This document shows, in pieces, positions 1,343 to 16,875 of a stretch of 26,137 nucleotides of DNA (position 1 is its first letter; every line of letters begins with the position of its first letter). The notes under the pieces are model-generated. The model did no database searches. It was not told the origin of the DNA and saw only the letters and a program-made list of their open reading frames with translations. Location: positions 1 through 26,137 of the IMG/VR virus record IMGVR_UViG_3300025617_000097, one strand, 5' to 3'. The DNA is from a virus. Made by a program: the position numbers and the translations under genes.

Positions 1343-4300
1343 TTATAAAGAAGGTAGATTTAGCTTTTTAGCTTCTGGCCTCCATCGGTTAAGTATGTCT
1401 ACTTTAGCCTCTGCATCTATTTTTCCGTTATTTACAAAGATATCTAAATATGCTTCGGCTACTTCTTTGAAGGGTTTCTTCATCTTCTTTGCTTTGTAAT
1501 ATAGTCCTTGTAACATTGCCGGTATCTCTTTATCTAAAAGGTAGTAGTTACTTGCTGGCATTATACCTAATTGTTGTATATAGAATCTTAAATCTTGATC
1601 ATCCGGTAATTCTTTTGAAAGTATTACATTATACCCGGATTGTGTTAAGTGTTCAATTTCGTGTCTAACGATGTCTTTCAGGTCCATTGATATAGTAGAC
1701 CAGAGTCTAGGTAAGGTGCGGGGATCCACTTGAAAATACAGGGAGATGTTACCGTCCATGCCGGTATCTTCTACGTTACCTTCCTCGTCGTATGTTTCCG
1801 ACTCTCCTGCATCTGCATCACCGTCGGGTGAATATATACTCTCTTTAGTCTCTATGAAGTTGAGGTCTGCTTCTAAATCAAATACAATAGACCTTCCTTT
1901 CTTATTGAGAAGGTTGTAACTCTTTTCGAAAGATGCTTTTTTTATTGTACTATCTTTATCGAATTGTTCTTTCCATGCTTTGAATATGTCTGAGGATACT
2001 TGGGCAGTTATTGTATCGTATGTTCCTTCGTTTAGTTTAGGAGTATTGTCATGTCCGCATTTATGGCAGAGGTATGGTGATTTTCCTCCGGTTTCTTTTT
2101 TCCAGGACCATCCACAGTTCGAACATTCAATTCTATCTGCTGTTAGATCTTCCTCTAACTCTCTTGCTAATTCTACTGCGTATGCGTTTAGTCCAAATGG
2201 ATCTTTCTTTGTATTTTTTATGTTTTCATTTACGCTATCAGTCCAATTCCTGAATGTCATTGTACCTTTTAGGTTAGCTTCTTTCTCTAGATCGTTTAGA
2301 TTATCATCTTCGTGAGTGTTTGTAGTTGTTATATTTTCTAACCTTCCTTCAAGATTTTGCATGTGGTGAATCATTTCATGTGCAAATGATCTTACAATAT
2401 CTTTAGGGTGTCTTCCTTCTGTGTATAGTACTATTGTACTTGATGCTGGATCGTAGTAGGCAGTCTTTCCAAAGAAGTCTCTTGCATTTTCGGAATCTCC
2501 GTTTATAAATTTGACTGTAGGTAGAGGTTCAATCCTCATACCTTTAGCTTTCATATGATCTGTTAGTTTTGCTATCTTATACTGGACTTTATTATCTTTG
2601 TTGTAAGATGCATTTTCAACTAGCATAGATTTTATGGAGGTCTCAGGGTACTTATCCTTTAATCCCGCTACTGCGTCCACGTTTTTTTGAGAATCATCTC
2701 TAAACTCAATATTATTGTACCCTTTTTTGATTTGAGCTTCAATCCATCGAGATTTATCCTTTGGATCACTTGACCCTAACCCTACTACATAAGGTTCTAT
2801 GTTAAATTCATCCTTCAGGTACTTTTTAACCGGGTATCCTAGTAATCTTGCTGTTAAGATTGTAGTTTTTTCTGTCGGGTCGTTATAAGATTTTATTAAG
2901 TCTTGTATGTTATCCTCTAACGGTTTAGCTTTCTTTATTACAGAGCTAAATTCAGAGAAGTTAAACGTATCTCCTTCTTTAGGAACATATACTGCGTATT
3001 CGGCAGGTGTTAGTCCTGATTTGGTTCCGTCTTTATGAGTTATGTGTATTCTAGCGTCAACATGTACTAATGTATCGTCAAAATCAAAGACTCTTAATTT
3101 CTTCTCTCCCTTATTCTCTTCTAATCCTTTTGTTTTCTCTAAAGCATCCCCTGCTTTTTTAGCGTCTTTATAAGCGTTTGAGTTCTTATGAGATGCTTTC
3201 TTACCGGCTTTCTTCTTAGCGTTTATGTTAGCCCACAATCCCTCGTCTACTGGGATATAACCAGATCCGTATGGAGCTGCTTTTTCTCGGTTCTGTGGAA
3301 TAACGTTCTCTGTTTGAGTTTTCTTTCTCCTGTAGTATAGTACTAATGCTCTTCGAGATGGCTTAGATAGACCTTTCCATAATCCTTTCAATAGGTCTGG
3401 TTGGTTTTTCATTCTATCCAACATCGCTGCGTGCGGTTCCCATAGATCTGCTGCTGCATCAGTGTCTTCGACAATAACTTCCTCTTTTATCTCTTCTGCT
3501 AATCCTAGAGCGTTAATATACTCATCTGCAGTAATACCTGCTGGTATGTACTTTTCAACTTCTGACTTATCTCTATTTAGTAGTGCTACTCTTAAGTCTG
3601 TTGCTGAGGTGTTTCCTATACCGGCTGATTCAAAGCTATTTACTTCTACGTTCGGTAATTTTTCATCTATGTTTTTAAATCTTGCTTTATCATCTTTACC
3701 GAAGACTGCTATATAGGGTTGGTCTTTATTTGCTTCAAACTCTTTATAAGCTGCTAGTACTGGGGATTTTTCTGGAGATATTATTATATTAACGTTACTG
3801 GGTATGATATTCTTATCTTTAAGTATGTTGAATATTCTTAGGGACTGTTCTGCACTTATTGCTTCTTGTCCGTCTTTTGCTCTCGTAGAAGGGCTTATGA
3901 ATACAAGGACCTTACCTTCGTTCCCTACTTTTTCAGAAGCAGCGATAATTCTATTAACATGATCTTTATGAGGAGGTTTAAATGCTCCAGGAAAGATAGC
4001 TATTTTTGTTTTCTCTTCTTCCTCTAAATATTCTACTCTTAAACTATTACGTGTATTTGCTCTATAAGATTCCTCTAGTTGAGCTACAGTATCTAGTGCC
4101 TTCTGTTTAGTGTCTCCTTTGGGTGTACCTTTCTCTGCCGCTCCAACTTTAATAGATTTCTTAAAATAACCTTTTACTCTATTTTTGGAACGTTCGTTTT
4201 TTAGAGATTTTACTTTGGGTATTATGTCTTCAAACGTTCCATTAAGGTCGTAATCCTTGAGTAGTTTTCTAACGTCTTCGAAATTTTTAGATTGCCATAC

Positions 4301-4927
4301 TATATTACTATTTAATATCTTATAGTTGTCTCCGTAAGTAACAAGTCTCAAGGTTAGTCCAGAAGTATCTATATGAAATTCATATTCCTGTCCTTCCCCG
4401 GCTTGCGGTATGTTAGTAATATTTAATCTCTTAAATACGTCTTCTGGTTTTTCTTCTAGTAACGGTGTCTTTATTAACCCTAGTACTAGTCCTTGAATCT
4501 CTGCTGGGTAGTCTAGGATGGTCTTCTTAAACTCTCCTTCTTCTTTAGAGAGAGAAATTATGTTATCTACCTGTACAAACTCTCCTGGGATACCGGAAAT
4601 GGGGTACAGGTTAGAAACCATCTCTCCGTGGTTAATATACTTCCTCCCTTTGTATTTAGGATTTTGTAGCGGTGGTAGTTCGTTGTCGGGTAGGGATTGA
4701 AATAGATCTGCTATTGCCTTCTTAACTTCCTTTTTAGTTTTATCAGTTTCAATCGTTACTATAATATCGATATCTCCGAAATCCTCTTTCTCTGGCCTAT
4801 TAAATGAACCGGAAAGTTTAGCATCTTTAAATCCTCCTATCTTAGATAGTATGTTATCTGTATAGTCTTTTACTGTCTGCTCGACTGCAGATCTTGGTAT
4901 TCTGGTTCCTCCTGCTGCTCCTGACAT
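1343..4927 (-). CDS. Multi-enzyme fusion: nucleotidyltransferase + cytidylyltransferase-like + HAD + two HExxH protease-like domains
   Basis: 1194 residues. Order seen: (a) nucleotidyltransferase fold, GS at 40-41, D52-x-D54 and a third Asp at D121 (FVQVD). (b) Nucleotidylyltransferase superfamily (cytidylyltransferase/NMN adenylyltransferase type) from 308, GAFKPPHKDH at 314-323 and a TSATDLR signature at 440-446, close to ISxTxxR. (c) Lysine-rich linker 490-600. (d) HAD phosphatase, DFDDT at 615-619, ILTAR 690-694, RDD 743-745, resembling polynucleotide-kinase phosphatase domains. (e) Metalloprotease-like HEMIH at 850-854. (f) Zinc ribbon CSNC 935-938 with CHKC 954-957. (g) Second HExxH, HEIEH 1089-1093. 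(I/L)xE tripeptides fall in the linkers: 301-303, 476-478, 480-482, 485-487, 602-604, 769-771, 965-967. Its ATG overlaps the upstream stop (TAATG), so translation is probably coupled. Domain calls are firm by motif. Substrates, and whether it is packaged and cleaved, are inference. Confidence 0.85.
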   Translation of the reverse strand: MSGAAGGTRIPRSAVEQTVKDYTDNILSKIGGFKDAKLSGSFNRPEKEDFGDIDIIVTIETDKTKKEVKKAIADLFQSLPDNELPPLQNPKYKGRKYINHGEMVSNLYPISGIPGEFVQVDNIISLSKEEGEFKKTILDYPAEIQGLVLGLIKTPLLEEKPEDVFKRLNITNIPQAGEGQEYEFHIDTSGLTLRLVTYGDNYKILNSNIVWQSKNFEDVRKLLKDYDLNGTFEDIIPKVKSLKNERSKNRVKGYFKKSIKVGAAEKGTPKGDTKQKALDTVAQLEESYRANTRNSLRVEYLEEEEKTKIAIFPGAFKPPHKDHVNRIIAASEKVGNEGKVLVFISPSTRAKDGQEAISAEQSLRIFNILKDKNIIPSNVNIIISPEKSPVLAAYKEFEANKDQPYIAVFGKDDKARFKNIDEKLPNVEVNSFESAGIGNTSATDLRVALLNRDKSEVEKYIPAGITADEYINALGLAEEIKEEVIVEDTDAAADLWEPHAAMLDRMKNQPDLLKGLWKGLSKPSRRALVLYYRRKKTQTENVIPQNREKAAPYGSGYIPVDEGLWANINAKKKAGKKASHKNSNAYKDAKKAGDALEKTKGLEENKGEKKLRVFDFDDTLVHVDARIHITHKDGTKSGLTPAEYAVYVPKEGDTFNFSEFSSVIKKAKPLEDNIQDLIKSYNDPTEKTTILTARLLGYPVKKYLKDEFNIEPYVVGLGSSDPKDKSRWIEAQIKKGYNNIEFRDDSQKNVDAVAGLKDKYPETSIKSMLVENASYNKDNKVQYKIAKLTDHMKAKGMRIEPLPTVKFINGDSENARDFFGKTAYYDPASSTIVLYTEGRHPKDIVRSFAHEMIHHMQNLEGRLENITTTNTHEDDNLNDLEKEANLKGTMTFRNWTDSVNENIKNTKKDPFGLNAYAVELARELEEDLTADRIECSNCGWSWKKETGGKSPYLCHKCGHDNTPKLNEGTYDTITAQVSSDIFKAWKEQFDKDSTIKKASFEKSYNLLNKKGRSIVFDLEADLNFIETKESIYSPDGDADAGESETYDEEGNVEDTGMDGNISLYFQVDPRTLPRLWSTISMDLKDIVRHEIEHLTQSGYNVILSKELPDDQDLRFYIQQLGIMPASNYYLLDKEIPAMLQGLYYKAKKMKKPFKEVAEAYLDIFVNNGKIDAEAKVDILNRWRPEAKKLNLPSL

Positions 4928-5898
4928 TATTGTATAGCGTATTTTTTAAGGTTTGAATCGTCTGGAAGTCTTTTACCTGTTAGGTTTAATCTATCTTGAT
5001 TTTCTATCCAATACTTTTCTAGGTTCTCCGGTATGTGGGCAAAAGGACCAGTTCTATCGAGTATTTTTAAATAGATATCCATCACTTTACCGTAGTCCTC
5101 TTGTGAAAGGTTCTTTTCTAGAGCGGCGGATAATTCAAAGTAATCGTTTAGTTGATCCTGTGTTAGCTCTAGGCTGTATAACTTATTTAGAAGTGCAAGA
5201 GCTTCTTTGGGTGTTGAAGCTTCTACTTCTCTAGTTTCTTTATCTAATACTCCTTGTTCATGTTTGAACATTTTACCTTTAGCGGTAAAGAGTGCTAACA
5301 TTAGTTGAGTTCTGTGTAATCCTTTTACTACTCCTTTATAGATGTTTGAATAGTAACTAAATTTCAACCAGTCCGGGTCTCCTACATTTATGTCAACCTG
5401 TATTAGTTCTTTCTCTCTTGATCCGTTTTCGTTATATTGAGGGAATGCTAAGAATAGTGAATTTGAACCAGCAGATTTAGGATCCGCTTGGAGGATAGTG
5501 CTGTCGGTGTTAATCTTTTCTGCGATTAACGTAAGCATAGCTCTTAATTGAGATTGAGCTTCAGTTGAAGTTCTTGCTCTCTTTCTTATTTTTTCAAAGT
5601 ACTCGTTAAACTTTACTTCGTCTAGATCCCATCCTTCTAGATCGGGTTTACCGTCTTTAGTTAAATGTGTTACCGAGTAGGCGACGTCGATGTCTCCTGA
5701 CATGTCTTTCTTACCGGCAGAGCCTAGTTTTTCAAAGGAGGTGAAGGTAGAGGCTTTCTTTGGAAAGATTCTACCTATCTCTTCAACGAACTTTTCTAGC
5801 GTTGGTTCTATTTTTTCTTTTGCAATCGGAGCTGTTGTTCCAAATACGTTCCCTCCTTCAGTTATTAGTTCTTCTACGAGTGTGCGAAGTTTAATCAT
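4927..5898 (-). CDS. Nucleotidyltransferase-like protein with head-targeting-like leader
   Basis: 323 residues. It carries a polymerase-beta-type nucleotidyltransferase signature: GS at 59-60, D69-I-D71 in SGDIDVAYS, and a third acidic strand QVDINVGD with D169. This matches the N-terminal domain of the following fusion gene (GS...GDIDIIV...QVD), so the two probably share ancestry. The extreme N-terminus, MIKLRTLVEELITE followed by GG, resembles the capsid-targeting leaders of T4 internal proteins, which are removed after an (I/L)xE signal; here ITE at 12-14 and LVE at 7-9 fit. The C-terminal half is mostly helical. It follows the nuclease stop by 12 bases, with the late-type nonamer between, and its TAA overlaps the next ATG. 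The substrate is unknown: it could modify a host RNA, protein or small molecule. A CCA-adding-type tRNA role is not indicated. Confidence 0.75.
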   Translation of the reverse strand: MIKLRTLVEELITEGGNVFGTTAPIAKEKIEPTLEKFVEEIGRIFPKKASTFTSFEKLGSAGKKDMSGDIDVAYSVTHLTKDGKPDLEGWDLDEVKFNEYFEKIRKRARTSTEAQSQLRAMLTLIAEKINTDSTILQADPKSAGSNSLFLAFPQYNENGSREKELIQVDINVGDPDWLKFSYYSNIYKGVVKGLHRTQLMLALFTAKGKMFKHEQGVLDKETREVEASTPKEALALLNKLYSLELTQDQLNDYFELSAALEKNLSQEDYGKVMDIYLKILDRTGPFAHIPENLEKYWIENQDRLNLTGKRLPDDSNLKKYAIQ

Positions 5899-7685: not shown

Positions 7686-8132
7686 TTACTCTTCTATAAG
7701 GTCCTTAGGGTAAAACTTCCCAAGTATATTGGAGTTATATGAATCTTTCATTAATACTTCGAATAAGCATTGATAATGTAATTCATAGTAAGTTAGTTGT
7801 TTTTTTGAGAAAGTCAACTTTATAATTTCTCTTTTAAATTTATCTACACCTAACTCTTTTATATCCTCCAGAAGAGGTTTATTTGATCCCCAGTAGGAAA
7901 GCCAGTTGGATTCTTTAGTTACTTTCTTTTTCGTAGGTTTACGACCTGGTCCGGTTTGTTCAGAAAGTTCTTTTTTAGTAAGTTTTTTATTAAGAGTATT
8001 TAATAAAATTTTTCTACCTATATAGATTTTATTATTTTCTAGATTTGTTATTCTATATACAAAACCGTGACAATTTTCAGGGAATTGCTCTCTTGAGTTT
8101 ATTTCCTCATCTTGATATAACCATTTTGACAT
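7686..8132 (-). CDS. GIY-YIG endonuclease, probable free-standing homing enzyme
   Basis: 148 residues. The GIY-YIG core is recognisable: GFVYRITN at 23-30 in place of GIY, then YIGRK at 37-41, a basic linker (GPGRKPTKKK 61-70), SYWGS at 79-83, a candidate catalytic Glu at E117 (YYELHYQ) and an Asn-containing end (SYNSNILG 131-138). The domain cuts DNA using a metal bound by the Glu. Similar small proteins are scattered in T4-like phages as mobile intron-less homing endonucleases. It sits between tail genes and the replication pair, 14 bases from the preceding tail gene and 57 bases from the primase. It has no late-type nonamer of its own, consistent with insertion into the border. No separate DNA-binding domain is visible, so it could also be a repair or host-DNA nuclease. 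Confidence 0.75.
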   Translation of the reverse strand: MSKWLYQDEEINSREQFPENCHGFVYRITNLENNKIYIGRKILLNTLNKKLTKKELSEQTGPGRKPTKKKVTKESNWLSYWGSNKPLLEDIKELGVDKFKREIIKLTFSKKQLTYYELHYQCLFEVLMKDSYNSNILGKFYPKDLIEE

Positions 8133-13617: not shown

Positions 13618-16600
13618 TTATATTCCTCCAAGATCGTTTATTGTCCAGTTGTATGGAGGGTTTTGCAATACAGCTCTGGATGCAGAGGCTGGGGAGCTAA
13701 GAGTGAAGTGTTGTGCTACGTCAAAAGATACGTTGGATTGTATTATAGGTTGAGCTGCCCATCCTTGTAGTAGAGCATCATAATTTGTTTGTGAGAATGA
13801 ACTAGTACCGGCGGTTACTGCAAACATACCAGTTGCTTGTTGAAGTGATGAGATGTTCCAGGAAGATATATCTGCATTAAAGCTAGTTGCGTCGAAGAAC
13901 ATTTCAGACATATCAGTTACATTTCGTGTGTCCCATGAACTCACTCCTCCGCCTGATCCTGTACCGGCGAAAGATGTAGCTTCTCTAAACATTCCTCTCA
14001 TATTAGTTACGTTTTGAGTATCCCATGCACCGGATGCACCGTGGGATAGGTCCATATTAAATTCTGTAGCACCTTTAAACATGTATTCCATATTCCATAC
14101 GTTAAGGGTATTCCATATAGTTAGGTTGTTACCTGGGGCAGGTATATTAAATCCAAATGAAGTAGCATCGCTAAACATATAAGACATGTCTGCAACACCT
14201 GCAGTAGTGTCTGGGCTAGAAAATGTAAAGTTCTCGTTAAAGCTGTAGGCGTTTTGGAACATTCCTTTTAAGCTTCCTACGTTTGATATATCCCAGTTAT
14301 TAATACTTTGATTGAAGGACCTTGCTCCGTCAAACATATGCTCTAGGGTGATTCCAGAGTCTGTAACTAGGCCGTCGACTGGTTGGTTGAAGGCGGAGGC
14401 GCTGTGGAACATATGAGCAAAGGTAGTTACATTACCTGTATCCCATGATATTGGTTTGTTGTAGGATACTGCTTCAGCGAAAGTTCCGCTCATATCTGTA
14501 ACTAGCCCTGTATCCCATAGTAATGTCTGGTTGAAGTCTCTTGCGTTTTTAAACGTATGTTTTAGAGTTGTTACGTTAGAGGTGTCCCAGGGTAGAGGAG
14601 TGTTAAATCGTGTTGCATCTTGAAATGCTCTCTCCATACTGAGTACAGTTTTTGTATTCCATCTATCTATAGATCCGCTCAAGTTGTTAGCGCCTCTAAA
14701 GAAGTCTTTCATACTGGTGGTAGATACTCTAGGTTTATCTGTAGCAGTGAGTTTATATTGTAGAGATGTAGGTCTTGCACTCGGTCCTAATTCATCAGCT
14801 CCGTAGAAAGAGGCGGAGGTACTTAATTCTAGAGGTCCGAAACTTCTTATATCTGTTAGGCTGCTTGTATAACCGGTATTATTAAATGCAAATCCTTTTA
14901 TAGTTCCTGTTATTGTTACATATTTAGTTCCAGAAGTAGAGTAGTTATGTGTTTTTGCTGCATCATCCCATGCAGTAATTATATCTGTGCTTCCATCACC
15001 CCAGTCTACAGTCATGTTATAGGTTCCGTTAGGTACTAGGGGTAGAGATATAGGGCTTGTTGCTATCCATTCACTAACAAATCCGGCACCTTCCCATGGA
15101 GTAGAAACGTATCCTGACCCGGAAGTATTATAACTGTAGTTGTATTGATTATACCAGTTATCCCAGGTATTCACGTTTTTATCTTTTCCTCCAAATTCTG
15201 ATATTCTTAATATGGTGTCTGGTATTCCATAGCAGTTCAGTAGTACTCTTAATCCTGCAGTCGTTCCTTTCTTTTTCAGGAGATAAGGTAGGTTGTGGTA
15301 TAATCTCTTATAAATTAATTTCTGTGCATCATTAGAAGGTATGGTTTCTGCAGAAGCTGTTACGTAGTTAGTTATAAGTTCGCTTCCTGTTGGAGGTAGT
15401 GTTCCTCCAGTTTCCGTTATTCCTAATAATCCAGTAAATAGATCGCTGTTAGTAAAACTACTTTCGTATATATCTAATCCGTAGGATCTTAAAGCATCCG
15501 CAACTAGATCTATAGATATACCTCCACTTAAACTATTATCCCCATCTTGTCTATTCTCTAAGGCTTTAGTGTATATCCAAATCTCGTCAAACATTTGAGC
15601 GGTTAATTCGGAAAATAGTTTAAATTGAGAATTGTCCTCATCATCCTTAATGTAGCTCGGGAAAATTTCGTATAGGTTGTTTAGGTTTTCTCTATCGTAT
15701 GCAGAAGCAGAAGCTGCTTGAGCTGTTAACCAGTTAGTAGCTTCAGAGGAGGTATAAGAGTAGGGGGTGTAGGGTTTAGTTGAATTTTGTTTTGGCCAGG
15801 CATAGGAGCTACTTTCATAGTAGAGGTAATAGTCGTACCCGTCAAAATTCTTAATAATTCTTTTTATTTCTCCTTCATAAAATGCCTTACTTGCAGATAA
15901 TTCTGTTACCGGTGTTCCGGTTAATCCGTTTAGTGTTGCTATTTGAGCTTCATGGGATTCTATCTGGGTTGCTTTGTAGTTGAAGTTTGTTAACCTGGTA
16001 TTAACTGAACTGAAGAATGCAAAGTTACTATAGTCTGTGTAGTCTGTGTTAAGTTCTGCTCTATTTTCTGCTAATACACTTTGAAGTTGGTTGGTTATTC
16101 CTGCTGTAGATGCAGAGGTTAAGGTGTTAATAGATTTATACTCTGTAGTATTATTAGTTTGAGTTCCTGTTTTTAAATAAAGGTTAGGTCCTCTTAAGTA
16201 CTTCTTAGTATCTAATTGTATTTCTTCTTCGGGATATTGTACTTGGTATGCTTGGGAGTCGGCTTTTTTAGCTAGGAAGTTGAAATTTGAACCCTCTCCG
16301 AAGTTATTATCTAGAGGTTCATAAAGCTTAATTAATATGGTATCGGAATCGTAACCGACATTGACTGCAAATTCTAATTGATTTGATCCAAAGTCTAAAT
16401 AAAAGCCTTCGAATGTTCTAGTATCGTTTAGATCTGCAAGAAGTGTTTGATACACTCCTCTTAATTGGGGAGGTAGTAGGGTAGAACTGTTTACTCTTAG
16501 TTCTGTCCTATCTAAAGATACTTCCGATATAAAGAAGTTAGGATTATTATCTACAAGGGGAGATACAAAATTATACAGTACTTGATACTCTCCTCGAGTA

Positions 16601-16875
16601 TATCCATTAGACTGTAAGTCTTTTCCTGGAGATATTGATAGTGCTGCAGTCTCTTCCCCTACCGGTAATCCGTTGATTTCATATCCGGTAGTTATTCGGT
16701 CGATAAAGGTACCTTCTATATCGTATAGGTATGCTTGGATAATATCTGTCGATACATTGAAGGTGGAATTTAGAACTATACTGTTTATGTTAGCTCCATC
16801 TTCTGCTGATATTGTAGGTAATGTAGTTCCTTCTATAGTACCTACTCCTAGGGATATTACTGTTGGTTCTGCCAT
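13618..16875 (-). CDS. Tail adhesin: virion module, PKD-like domain and 12 BspA-like (DUF285) repeats
   Basis: 1085 residues. Residues 1-580 look like a phage structural module: Asn/Ser/Thr-rich, with LPYLLKKKGTTAGLRVLL (529-546) and GIPDTILRISEFGG (550-563), a block I recognise from large virion proteins of aquatic myoviruses. At 600-662 is a PKD/Ig-like domain (VDWGDGST at 623-630, then KTHNYSTSGTKYVTI at 641-655). From 721 to about 1020 run 12 units of roughly 24-30 residues of pattern MF-x-x-A-x-x-F-N ... W-D-T-x-N-V-T-x-M, the BspA-like/DUF285 repeat. The C-terminus (YDALLQGW at 1032-1039, YNWTINDLGG 1075-1084) matches the usual ending of Bacteroidota surface proteins with this repeat. 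A receptor-binding role is inferred. Its ATG overlaps the preceding stop (TAATG). Confidence 0.85.
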   Translation of the reverse strand: MAEPTVISLGVGTIEGTTLPTISAEDGANINSIVLNSTFNVSTDIIQAYLYDIEGTFIDRITTGYEINGLPVGEETAALSISPGKDLQSNGYTRGEYQVLYNFVSPLVDNNPNFFISEVSLDRTELRVNSSTLLPPQLRGVYQTLLADLNDTRTFEGFYLDFGSNQLEFAVNVGYDSDTILIKLYEPLDNNFGEGSNFNFLAKKADSQAYQVQYPEEEIQLDTKKYLRGPNLYLKTGTQTNNTTEYKSINTLTSASTAGITNQLQSVLAENRAELNTDYTDYSNFAFFSSVNTRLTNFNYKATQIESHEAQIATLNGLTGTPVTELSASKAFYEGEIKRIIKNFDGYDYYLYYESSSYAWPKQNSTKPYTPYSYTSSEATNWLTAQAASASAYDRENLNNLYEIFPSYIKDDEDNSQFKLFSELTAQMFDEIWIYTKALENRQDGDNSLSGGISIDLVADALRSYGLDIYESSFTNSDLFTGLLGITETGGTLPPTGSELITNYVTASAETIPSNDAQKLIYKRLYHNLPYLLKKKGTTAGLRVLLNCYGIPDTILRISEFGGKDKNVNTWDNWYNQYNYSYNTSGSGYVSTPWEGAGFVSEWIATSPISLPLVPNGTYNMTVDWGDGSTDIITAWDDAAKTHNYSTSGTKYVTITGTIKGFAFNNTGYTSSLTDIRSFGPLELSTSASFYGADELGPSARPTSLQYKLTATDKPRVSTTSMKDFFRGANNLSGSIDRWNTKTVLSMERAFQDATRFNTPLPWDTSNVTTLKHTFKNARDFNQTLLWDTGLVTDMSGTFAEAVSYNKPISWDTGNVTTFAHMFHSASAFNQPVDGLVTDSGITLEHMFDGARSFNQSINNWDISNVGSLKGMFQNAYSFNENFTFSSPDTTAGVADMSYMFSDATSFGFNIPAPGNNLTIWNTLNVWNMEYMFKGATEFNMDLSHGASGAWDTQNVTNMRGMFREATSFAGTGSGGGVSSWDTRNVTDMSEMFFDATSFNADISSWNISSLQQATGMFAVTAGTSSFSQTNYDALLQGWAAQPIIQSNVSFDVAQHFTLSSPASASRAVLQNPPYNWTINDLGGI
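13816..14715 (-). repeat. Coding region for 12 BspA-like (DUF285) repeat units
   Basis: Units begin near residues 721, 746, 772, 796, 820, 845, 870, 898, 930, 960, 990 and 1015 of the adhesin. Each carries an aromatic pair followed by A-x-x-F/Y-N, and most have W-D-T-x-N-V-T before the next unit. Units at 870-930 are longer, with insertions. They are diverged from each other at the DNA level, so this is an old array rather than a recent expansion. Confidence 0.85.
14890..15078 (-). other. Coding region for a PKD/Ig-like domain
   Basis: Residues 600-662 of the adhesin. VDWGDGST and the later HNYSTSGTKYVTITG are hallmark strands of PKD-type folds, which in Bacteroidota surface proteins commonly stand just before DUF285 repeats, as here. 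Confidence 0.65.

Follow-up and report, generated by a model that had tools for sequence, protein, structure and literature searches.

How is a phage protein of 1194 residues, in which several unlike enzymes follow one another and (I/L)xE tripeptides stand between them, to be understood? The protein is encoded in a 26-kb IMG/VR fragment (26,137 nucleotides, here referred to as the window), whose source is a marine, T4-related phage, and an earlier note on this DNA had proposed that it is a polyprotein cut by a T4-type prohead protease into enzymes that are packaged and injected. Our analysis suggests that the gene probably does encode a late-made polyprotein of packaged, injected enzymes, cut by the phage's own gp21-type protease. 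The gene and its modules are the following.

1343..4927, minus strand: putative polyprotein gene, ATG start, 1194 residues without an internal stop
4118..4927, minus strand: module 1, Pol-beta/family X-like nucleotidyltransferase, residues 1-270 (GS..DID), without a leader of its own
3512..4015, minus strand: module 2, NMNAT/cytidylyltransferase-like, residues 305-472 (PHROG cytidyltransferase, 1.6e-4)
3308..3466, minus strand: helical segment, residues 488-540 (AF2 helices 490-538)
3125..3241, minus strand: module 3, small basic GLWANI module, residues 563-601 (from sequence)
2624..3115, minus strand: module 4, HAD, residues 605-768 (PHROG polynucleotide kinase, 1.1e-7; DFDDT at 615)
2159..2614, minus strand: module 5, HExxH domain 1 (MP1), residues 772-923 (HEMIH at 850; HExxH and Glu conserved)
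2042..2125, minus strand: zinc ribbon, residues 935-962 (CxxC...CxxC at about 936-960)
1346..2026, minus strand: module 6, HExxH domain 2 (MP2), residues 968-1194 (HEIEH at 1089, conserved motif)

All the domains named in the earlier note (nucleotidyltransferase, nucleotidylyltransferase, HAD, two HExxH domains and zinc ribbon) were recovered by Pfam, PHROG, Foldseek or motifs, the catalytic motifs being judged by eye. Module 1 matched Pfam DNA_pol_B_palm above cut-off (1.2e-5) and, in Foldseek, DNA polymerase lambda (E 2.5e-6). Module 2 reached only 0.025 with Pfam CTP_transf_like, under the cut-off, and has HKDH at 320 as its site motif where many homologues have (T/H)xGH instead. The HAD region has low AF2 confidence and few homologues. 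HExxH domain 1 gave a weak Pfam match to Peptidase_M91 (0.019), and its structural neighbors in BFVD include IrrE-like names. The same domain was also found at only six loci in bacterial genomes, all of them metagenome-assembled, which are perhaps phage contigs. The zinc ribbon is mobile in position among homologues, and the GLWANI module is also found near the N-terminus, after a leader, at three other loci (L113, L015, L029). No sequence match was found in solved structures, none to the NMNAT and HAD modules in annotated phages by tblastn, and a search of a defense-system library returned just one weak match (0.007).

Each (I/L)xE tripeptide read between the modules in the earlier note is present and correctly placed, and four sites can be added to them: LEE 284-286, LEE 924-926, VDE 560-562 before GLWANI, and the linker site LWE 495-497. 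The predicted cut sites are located as follows.

4070..4078, minus strand: LEE 284-286, aligning to L(A/S/T/E)E of homologues
4019..4027, minus strand: LEE 301-303 (AF2 pLDDT <50 at 291-305)
3467..3502, minus strand: LAE 476-478, IKE 480-482 and IVE 485-487 (AF2 pLDDT <50 at 478-493)
3242..3250, minus strand: VDE 560-562, after AAPYGSGYIP and before GLWANI
3116..3124, minus strand: LEE 602-604 (AF2 pLDDT <50 at 591-627)
2615..2623, minus strand: LVE 769-771, before NASY (AF2 pLDDT <50 at 764-778)
2150..2158, minus strand: LEE 924-926 (AF2 pLDDT <50 at 913-929), LEE or LNE in other homologues
2027..2035, minus strand: LNE 965-967, before GTYD, conserved where HExxH domain 2 begins

Structure prediction, proposed in the earlier note as a check, agreed with this arrangement. 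An AF2 run on a 37-row alignment of the protein gave a mean pLDDT of 76.7 and a pTM of 0.37, the latter pointing to separate domains. Segments with pLDDT below 50 include residues 536-586 in addition to those listed above, and they contain every listed linker site except LEE 284, LAE 476 (at an edge), LWE 495 and LNE 965; the block 961-970 has a mean pLDDT of 65 and directly precedes a confident helix at 971. LEE 301-303 corresponds to the leader ends LIRPILE and LIKPFLTE of two homologues (L003 and L004), and linkers of the PYGSGY type also occur in L003, L007, L016 and L066.

The claim that such sites lie near every major boundary held for their placement and not for their total number. Counted over the whole protein, (I/L)xE is not in excess (13 vs 15.1 in shuffled sequences, P=0.77). 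With core limits set by the analyst from homology, 10 of the 13 fall within 253 linker residues (3.6 expected, P=2e-4), while the 941 core residues hold three where 11.5 were expected; these three (LLE 156, LEE 157 and IDE 420) bear out the earlier caveat that tripeptides also occur inside domains. Because the core limits were drawn in this way, a test of linkers among homologues weighs more.

For that test, 54 linkers of 6-60 residues from 49 non-redundant fused homologues were each shuffled. The motif [IL].E occurred 71 times against 27.2±4.5 after shuffling, homologous linkers being not fully independent, and the boundary enrichment across homologues anticipated by the earlier note was thereby found. 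At least one site was present in 46 of the 54 linkers (21 in shuffles, maximum 31 of 1000), and when the conserved sites that begin MP2 and MP1 were taken out, 47 still remained against 22.9±4.1. Control motifs in the same linkers ([IL].D, [IL].K, E.[IL], [IL]E and [IL]..E) showed no enrichment, with ratios of 0.84-1.04. At the MP2 start, 41 of 42 non-redundant sequences have Glu and 41 of 42 have Gly next, whereas the middle residue is free; the position three before the cut is L in 26, I in 7, M in 6 and V in 2 (41/42), and the pattern is kept behind unrelated upstream sequence. Likewise, where HExxH domain 1 begins with N(A/T)SY, (L/I/V)xE comes directly before it in five of five non-redundant cases, with unrelated sequence ahead of the site. 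Inside the modules, sites were fewer than expected in MP2 (observed/expected 0.22), NMNAT (0.63) and NT1 (0.68), and the bodies of leader-bearing late proteins had a ratio of only 0.94. A general depletion of folded cores was rejected as a rule, and site depletion is given little weight here, because neither MP1 (1.15) nor the upstream protein (1.33) is depleted.

These joints could also belong to an uncut, multi-domain 'polyvalent' protein, in which the tripeptides would be relics of the leaders of once separate genes or simply part of flexible acidic linkers. The linkers are Glu-rich, YGSFITDLIRPILE↓AEIG in L003 resembles a fused-in leader (the arrow marks a predicted cut), and the virion RNA polymerase of phage N4 is packaged without cutting (PMC5512222). 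However, no enrichment arose in shuffles that kept the composition or with motifs that were reversed or shifted, and just two residues, together with the Gly or Asn that follows the cut, are conserved in variable joints and among distant homologues. That the site residues are kept where the rest of the joint varies argues for continuing selection, and we consider an uncut protein unlikely.

For a polyprotein cut by a prohead protease, the rest of the genome is informative, and a gp21-like enzyme, which the earlier note suggested looking for there, was found. A 42-kb contig (G001; locus L002) matches the window with 100% identity across the window's first 20.8 kb, has an identical copy of the polyprotein gene, and encodes a Peptidase_S77 protease (PF03420, E 2.1e-32), as do 12 of 14 contigs in all. 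Genes for terminase, portal, the S77 protease, a scaffold-like protein and the major capsid protein lie on the same strand of this contig as the polyprotein gene, their names, with the exception of the protease, being assigned by position and similarity to Flavobacterium phage immuto (NC_055915), the nearest named phage. In immuto, Pfam identifies gp066 as Gp23, gp070 as Peptidase_S77 and gp074 as Portal_T4, and gp088/gp089 form the orthologous gene pair, with 37% identity and the same neighbors. Immuto gp088 is annotated as an NMN adenylyltransferase and nothing more; it has no HAD, basic module or ribbon, and gp089 has no leader. The cytidyltransferase of cyanophage S-PM2, considered as a known-phage parallel, was rejected because neither a leader nor a linker pattern of (I/L)xE could be clearly recognized in it.

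Across 80 viral loci the modules occur in many combinations, including the module 1 nucleotidyltransferase alone as a separate gene (L010, L011), and NMNAT joined to HExxH domain 1, in some cases together with the ribbon and HExxH domain 2 and in others not, extra modules being sometimes inserted. Single or N-terminal modules carry a leader of about 10-15 residues whose (I/L)xE end falls exactly at the module start, for example MNSLVKSLIQPILE↓QEKQKIAL (L008), MNELTKFLVNSILNE↓DEDAMG (L005) and MSKLSDFLVESILNE↓ADKK (L064). Stand-alone homologues of module 2 bear leaders, and those of HExxH domain 2 begin MIKLIDILKE↓GAYD (L151), MISLKTLIVE↓GRYD (L192) or MKYIKMFESFTLNE↓GRYD (L189). Some leaders are without the final Glu (...EILKD in L066, ...ELVGD in L006), which means that the pattern has exceptions. 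The 1194-residue protein itself starts MSGAAGG, with no N-terminal capsid-targeting leader, and the immuto-clade copies and their upstream gene likewise have none; internal leader-like segments are present in L003 (ITDLIRPILE) and L004 (TMELIKPFLTE).

The gene upstream of the polyprotein gene (4927-5898), which shares one base with it, has two parts.

5857..5898, minus strand: leader of the upstream gene, MIKLRTLVEELITE, with a predicted cut before GGNVFG
4930..5856, minus strand: second Pol-beta-fold nucleotidyltransferase, predicted mature part, residues 15-323 (Foldseek DNA pol beta, 5.7e-5)

In the window clade the upstream product begins MIKLRTLVEELITE↓GGNVFG or similar (...ITE↓GGNVF), with Glu right before GGN in six of six aligned sequences, and AF2 places residues 1-15 below pLDDT 50 ahead of a confident body. 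Ten orthologues in the immuto clade begin M-GGNVF, without a leader. Judging from these sequences, the same mature end would arise by cutting after Glu in the window clade or by removal of the start Met in the immuto clade.

We surveyed leaders with a strict pattern in five long contigs and immuto, using 200 shuffles. Leaders were found on 63 late proteins versus 15.5 expected (maximum 24 of 200) and on 30 early proteins versus 21 (maximum 33). As gene starts had been assigned mechanically, individual cases may be erroneous. When the genes of the window itself were included, the late versus early odds ratio was 2.95 (p=2e-6). The leader bearers include capsid proteins (MELNTLLNE↓SAQG, MSNINSLLE↓SAAG, MSTVQNLLE↓SANP), HAD/NT5C proteins and the S77 protease as well (MNNPLLINVTPFKGLLTE↓SKVK). 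Substrates in T4 have the same pattern (IPIII, MKTYQEFIAE↓A; IPI, ...TITE↓A; gp24, MAKINELLRE↓S). For the cut specificity of this phage's S77 protease we rely on T4, in which gp21 cuts L/I-X-E and the CTS is residues 1-10 of IPIII (PMC9026906), and in which the cuts in Alt fall at ITE-6 and LTE-619 (PMC5694885). An Asp at position 10 of T4 IPIII prevents its processing while leaving targeting intact (PMC9026906).

The distribution of sites also bears on the possibility that the HExxH domains of the polyprotein process it themselves, either ahead of packaging or once it has been injected. Iyer et al. 2017 (PMC5512222) proposed that such proteins are self-processed by their zincins, and both HExxH domains here have conserved motifs, but many homologues and leader-bearing single modules without one or both of these domains keep their xE sites, and the motif is that of gp21 and is carried by the capsid protein and by the S77 protease too, which makes self-processing very unlikely. 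Least probable of all is an ordinary fusion of intracellular nucleotide or RNA metabolism enzymes that is never packaged, as might be read from the NMNAT- and polynucleotide-kinase-like annotations, the adjoining primase and exonuclease genes and the lack of a leader on the polyprotein, immuto gp088 or gp089, since the gene shares its strand with the terminase-portal-protease-capsid block and its stand-alone module relatives carry leaders of the capsid-substrate type.

For the prohead-protease polyprotein, the modules, the sites at the joints, the stand-alone leaders and the protease of the same virus are present at the level of sequence. Since the joints bear the signal of a head-maturation protease, the enzymes are probably packed as one piece, cut in the head and injected; these three steps we infer for the polyprotein. 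Independently folded modules would be held on flexible linkers bearing (I/L)xE sites for a gp21-type (Peptidase_S77) prohead protease. Expressed late, the polyprotein would enter the prohead core alongside other leader-bearing proteins, probably by means of leader-like stretches within the chain or of a partner, for example the upstream nucleotidyltransferase. The S77 protease would then release separate enzymes beginning E↓GRYD, E↓NASY or E↓GLWANI, DNA would be packaged together with the cut enzymes, and after injection these may act at an early stage on nucleotides, RNA or proteins of the host, the targets being the most uncertain part. Entry into the prohead is the weak link of this mechanism, because the protein and its immuto-clade orthologues are without an N-terminal leader. 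The earlier proposal is supported in part, by its boundary sites and protease and, beyond what it had put forward, by the leaders on stand-alone modules and on known protease substrates; the protein's own leader, expected from a simple T4 analogy, is absent. By analogy with T4 Alt and IPI, a role for the enzymes in host modification and takeover or in evasion of defense is plausible.

As in T4 internal head proteins and Alt, the stand-alone modules have a short N-terminal leader ending in (I/L)xE and are late genes, and these phages have a Peptidase_S77 protease, a Gp23-type capsid protein and a T4-type portal. However, T4 cargo consists of one end-trimmed protein per gene, while here several enzymes form one chain that has sites where they join, and, unlike T4 CTS cargo, this chain has no N-terminal leader of its own. 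The polyvalent proteins (Iyer et al. 2017, PMC5512222) are similar in combining unlike enzyme domains in one phage polypeptide, in shuffled architectures that include zincin-like and Pol-beta nucleotidyltransferase domains (here by HExxH motif and fold), and in their supposed packaging. Processing by embedded zincins was proposed for them, whereas the joints here carry prohead-protease sites and the modules are also found as separate genes with capsid-targeting-like leaders. In phiKZ and SPN3US, many head or inner-body proteins are cut after xxE by the gp21-related gp175/gp245, and the cuts reported in the excerpts of PMC9026906 and PMC10052503 are propeptide removal plus the protease's own C-terminal cut, with no separation of multiple enzymes described there. 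In our search of open-licence papers, no phage multi-enzyme chain was described as split by a prohead protease, and our literature search found no virion proteomics of immuto or its relatives. The polyprotein joins features of T4 head cargo with those of 'polyvalent proteins'.

Polyprotein logic is familiar from RNA viruses. On balance we favor the view that tailed phages may also make unlike enzymes as a true polyprotein, split in the prohead by the capsid-maturation protease, which would let a single targeting event pack a matched injected set, with modules swapping between leader-bearing genes and the polyprotein and carrying the cut site along. If true, RNA-virus-like polyprotein logic would extend to tailed phages, where an assembly protease would do the cutting. 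A leader or linker ending in (I/L)xE would then be a sequence rule for the injected enzymes of marine Bacteroidetes phages related to T4, of whose cargo very little is known so far, and every leader-bearing late protein would be a testable candidate for packaging and injection.

Many unrelated proteins bear a stereotyped leader of a second kind, M.NFDLKKFL(V/T)E followed after the predicted cut by NK(L/I)T.NS; several of them carry an additional LxE a few residues downstream of it. It was located at the following positions:

Viral contig G009, 20746-21500
Flavobacterium phage immuto (NC_055915), 103806, 117631 and 118632
42-kb contig G001, 19781

Two further proteins are considered here:

Immuto 125626-126867, gp067, annotated as 'DNA polymerase phi-like'
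Window 13618-16875 (-), tail-region protein of 1085 aa

Despite its annotation, gp067 is probably the gp22-like scaffold; it is acidic with many (I/L)xE sites, and its gene is flanked by protease and capsid genes. The C-terminal half of the tail-region protein contains repeats of the type 'W DTSNVT.M..MF..A..FN', which by eye appear to resemble BspA.

The gene at window 7686-8132 (-) belongs to a family named 'NAD synthetase' in PHROG (phrog_447), a name that looks wrong because the immuto homolog (L001:8706-9143) matches the Pfam SegE GIY-YIG endonuclease (3.1e-26). At locus L011 (2874-3836), two ORFs (93 and 202 aa) replace the single upstream nucleotidyltransferase gene, reflecting either a frameshift or a sequencing error.

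Three polyprotein homologs (L007:3365-6979, L009:4326-7985 and L171) have a second nucleotidylyltransferase copy, preceded by a leader-like linker, SKTLIANLLE, predicted to be cut before QENN. In two others, an inserted module (L012 residues 471-524, L016 residues 494-527) weakly resembles the T4 RegB endoribonuclease, below cut-off in both (E 0.045 and 0.0012, respectively), and by this similarity is a candidate for an RNase carried as part of the cargo.
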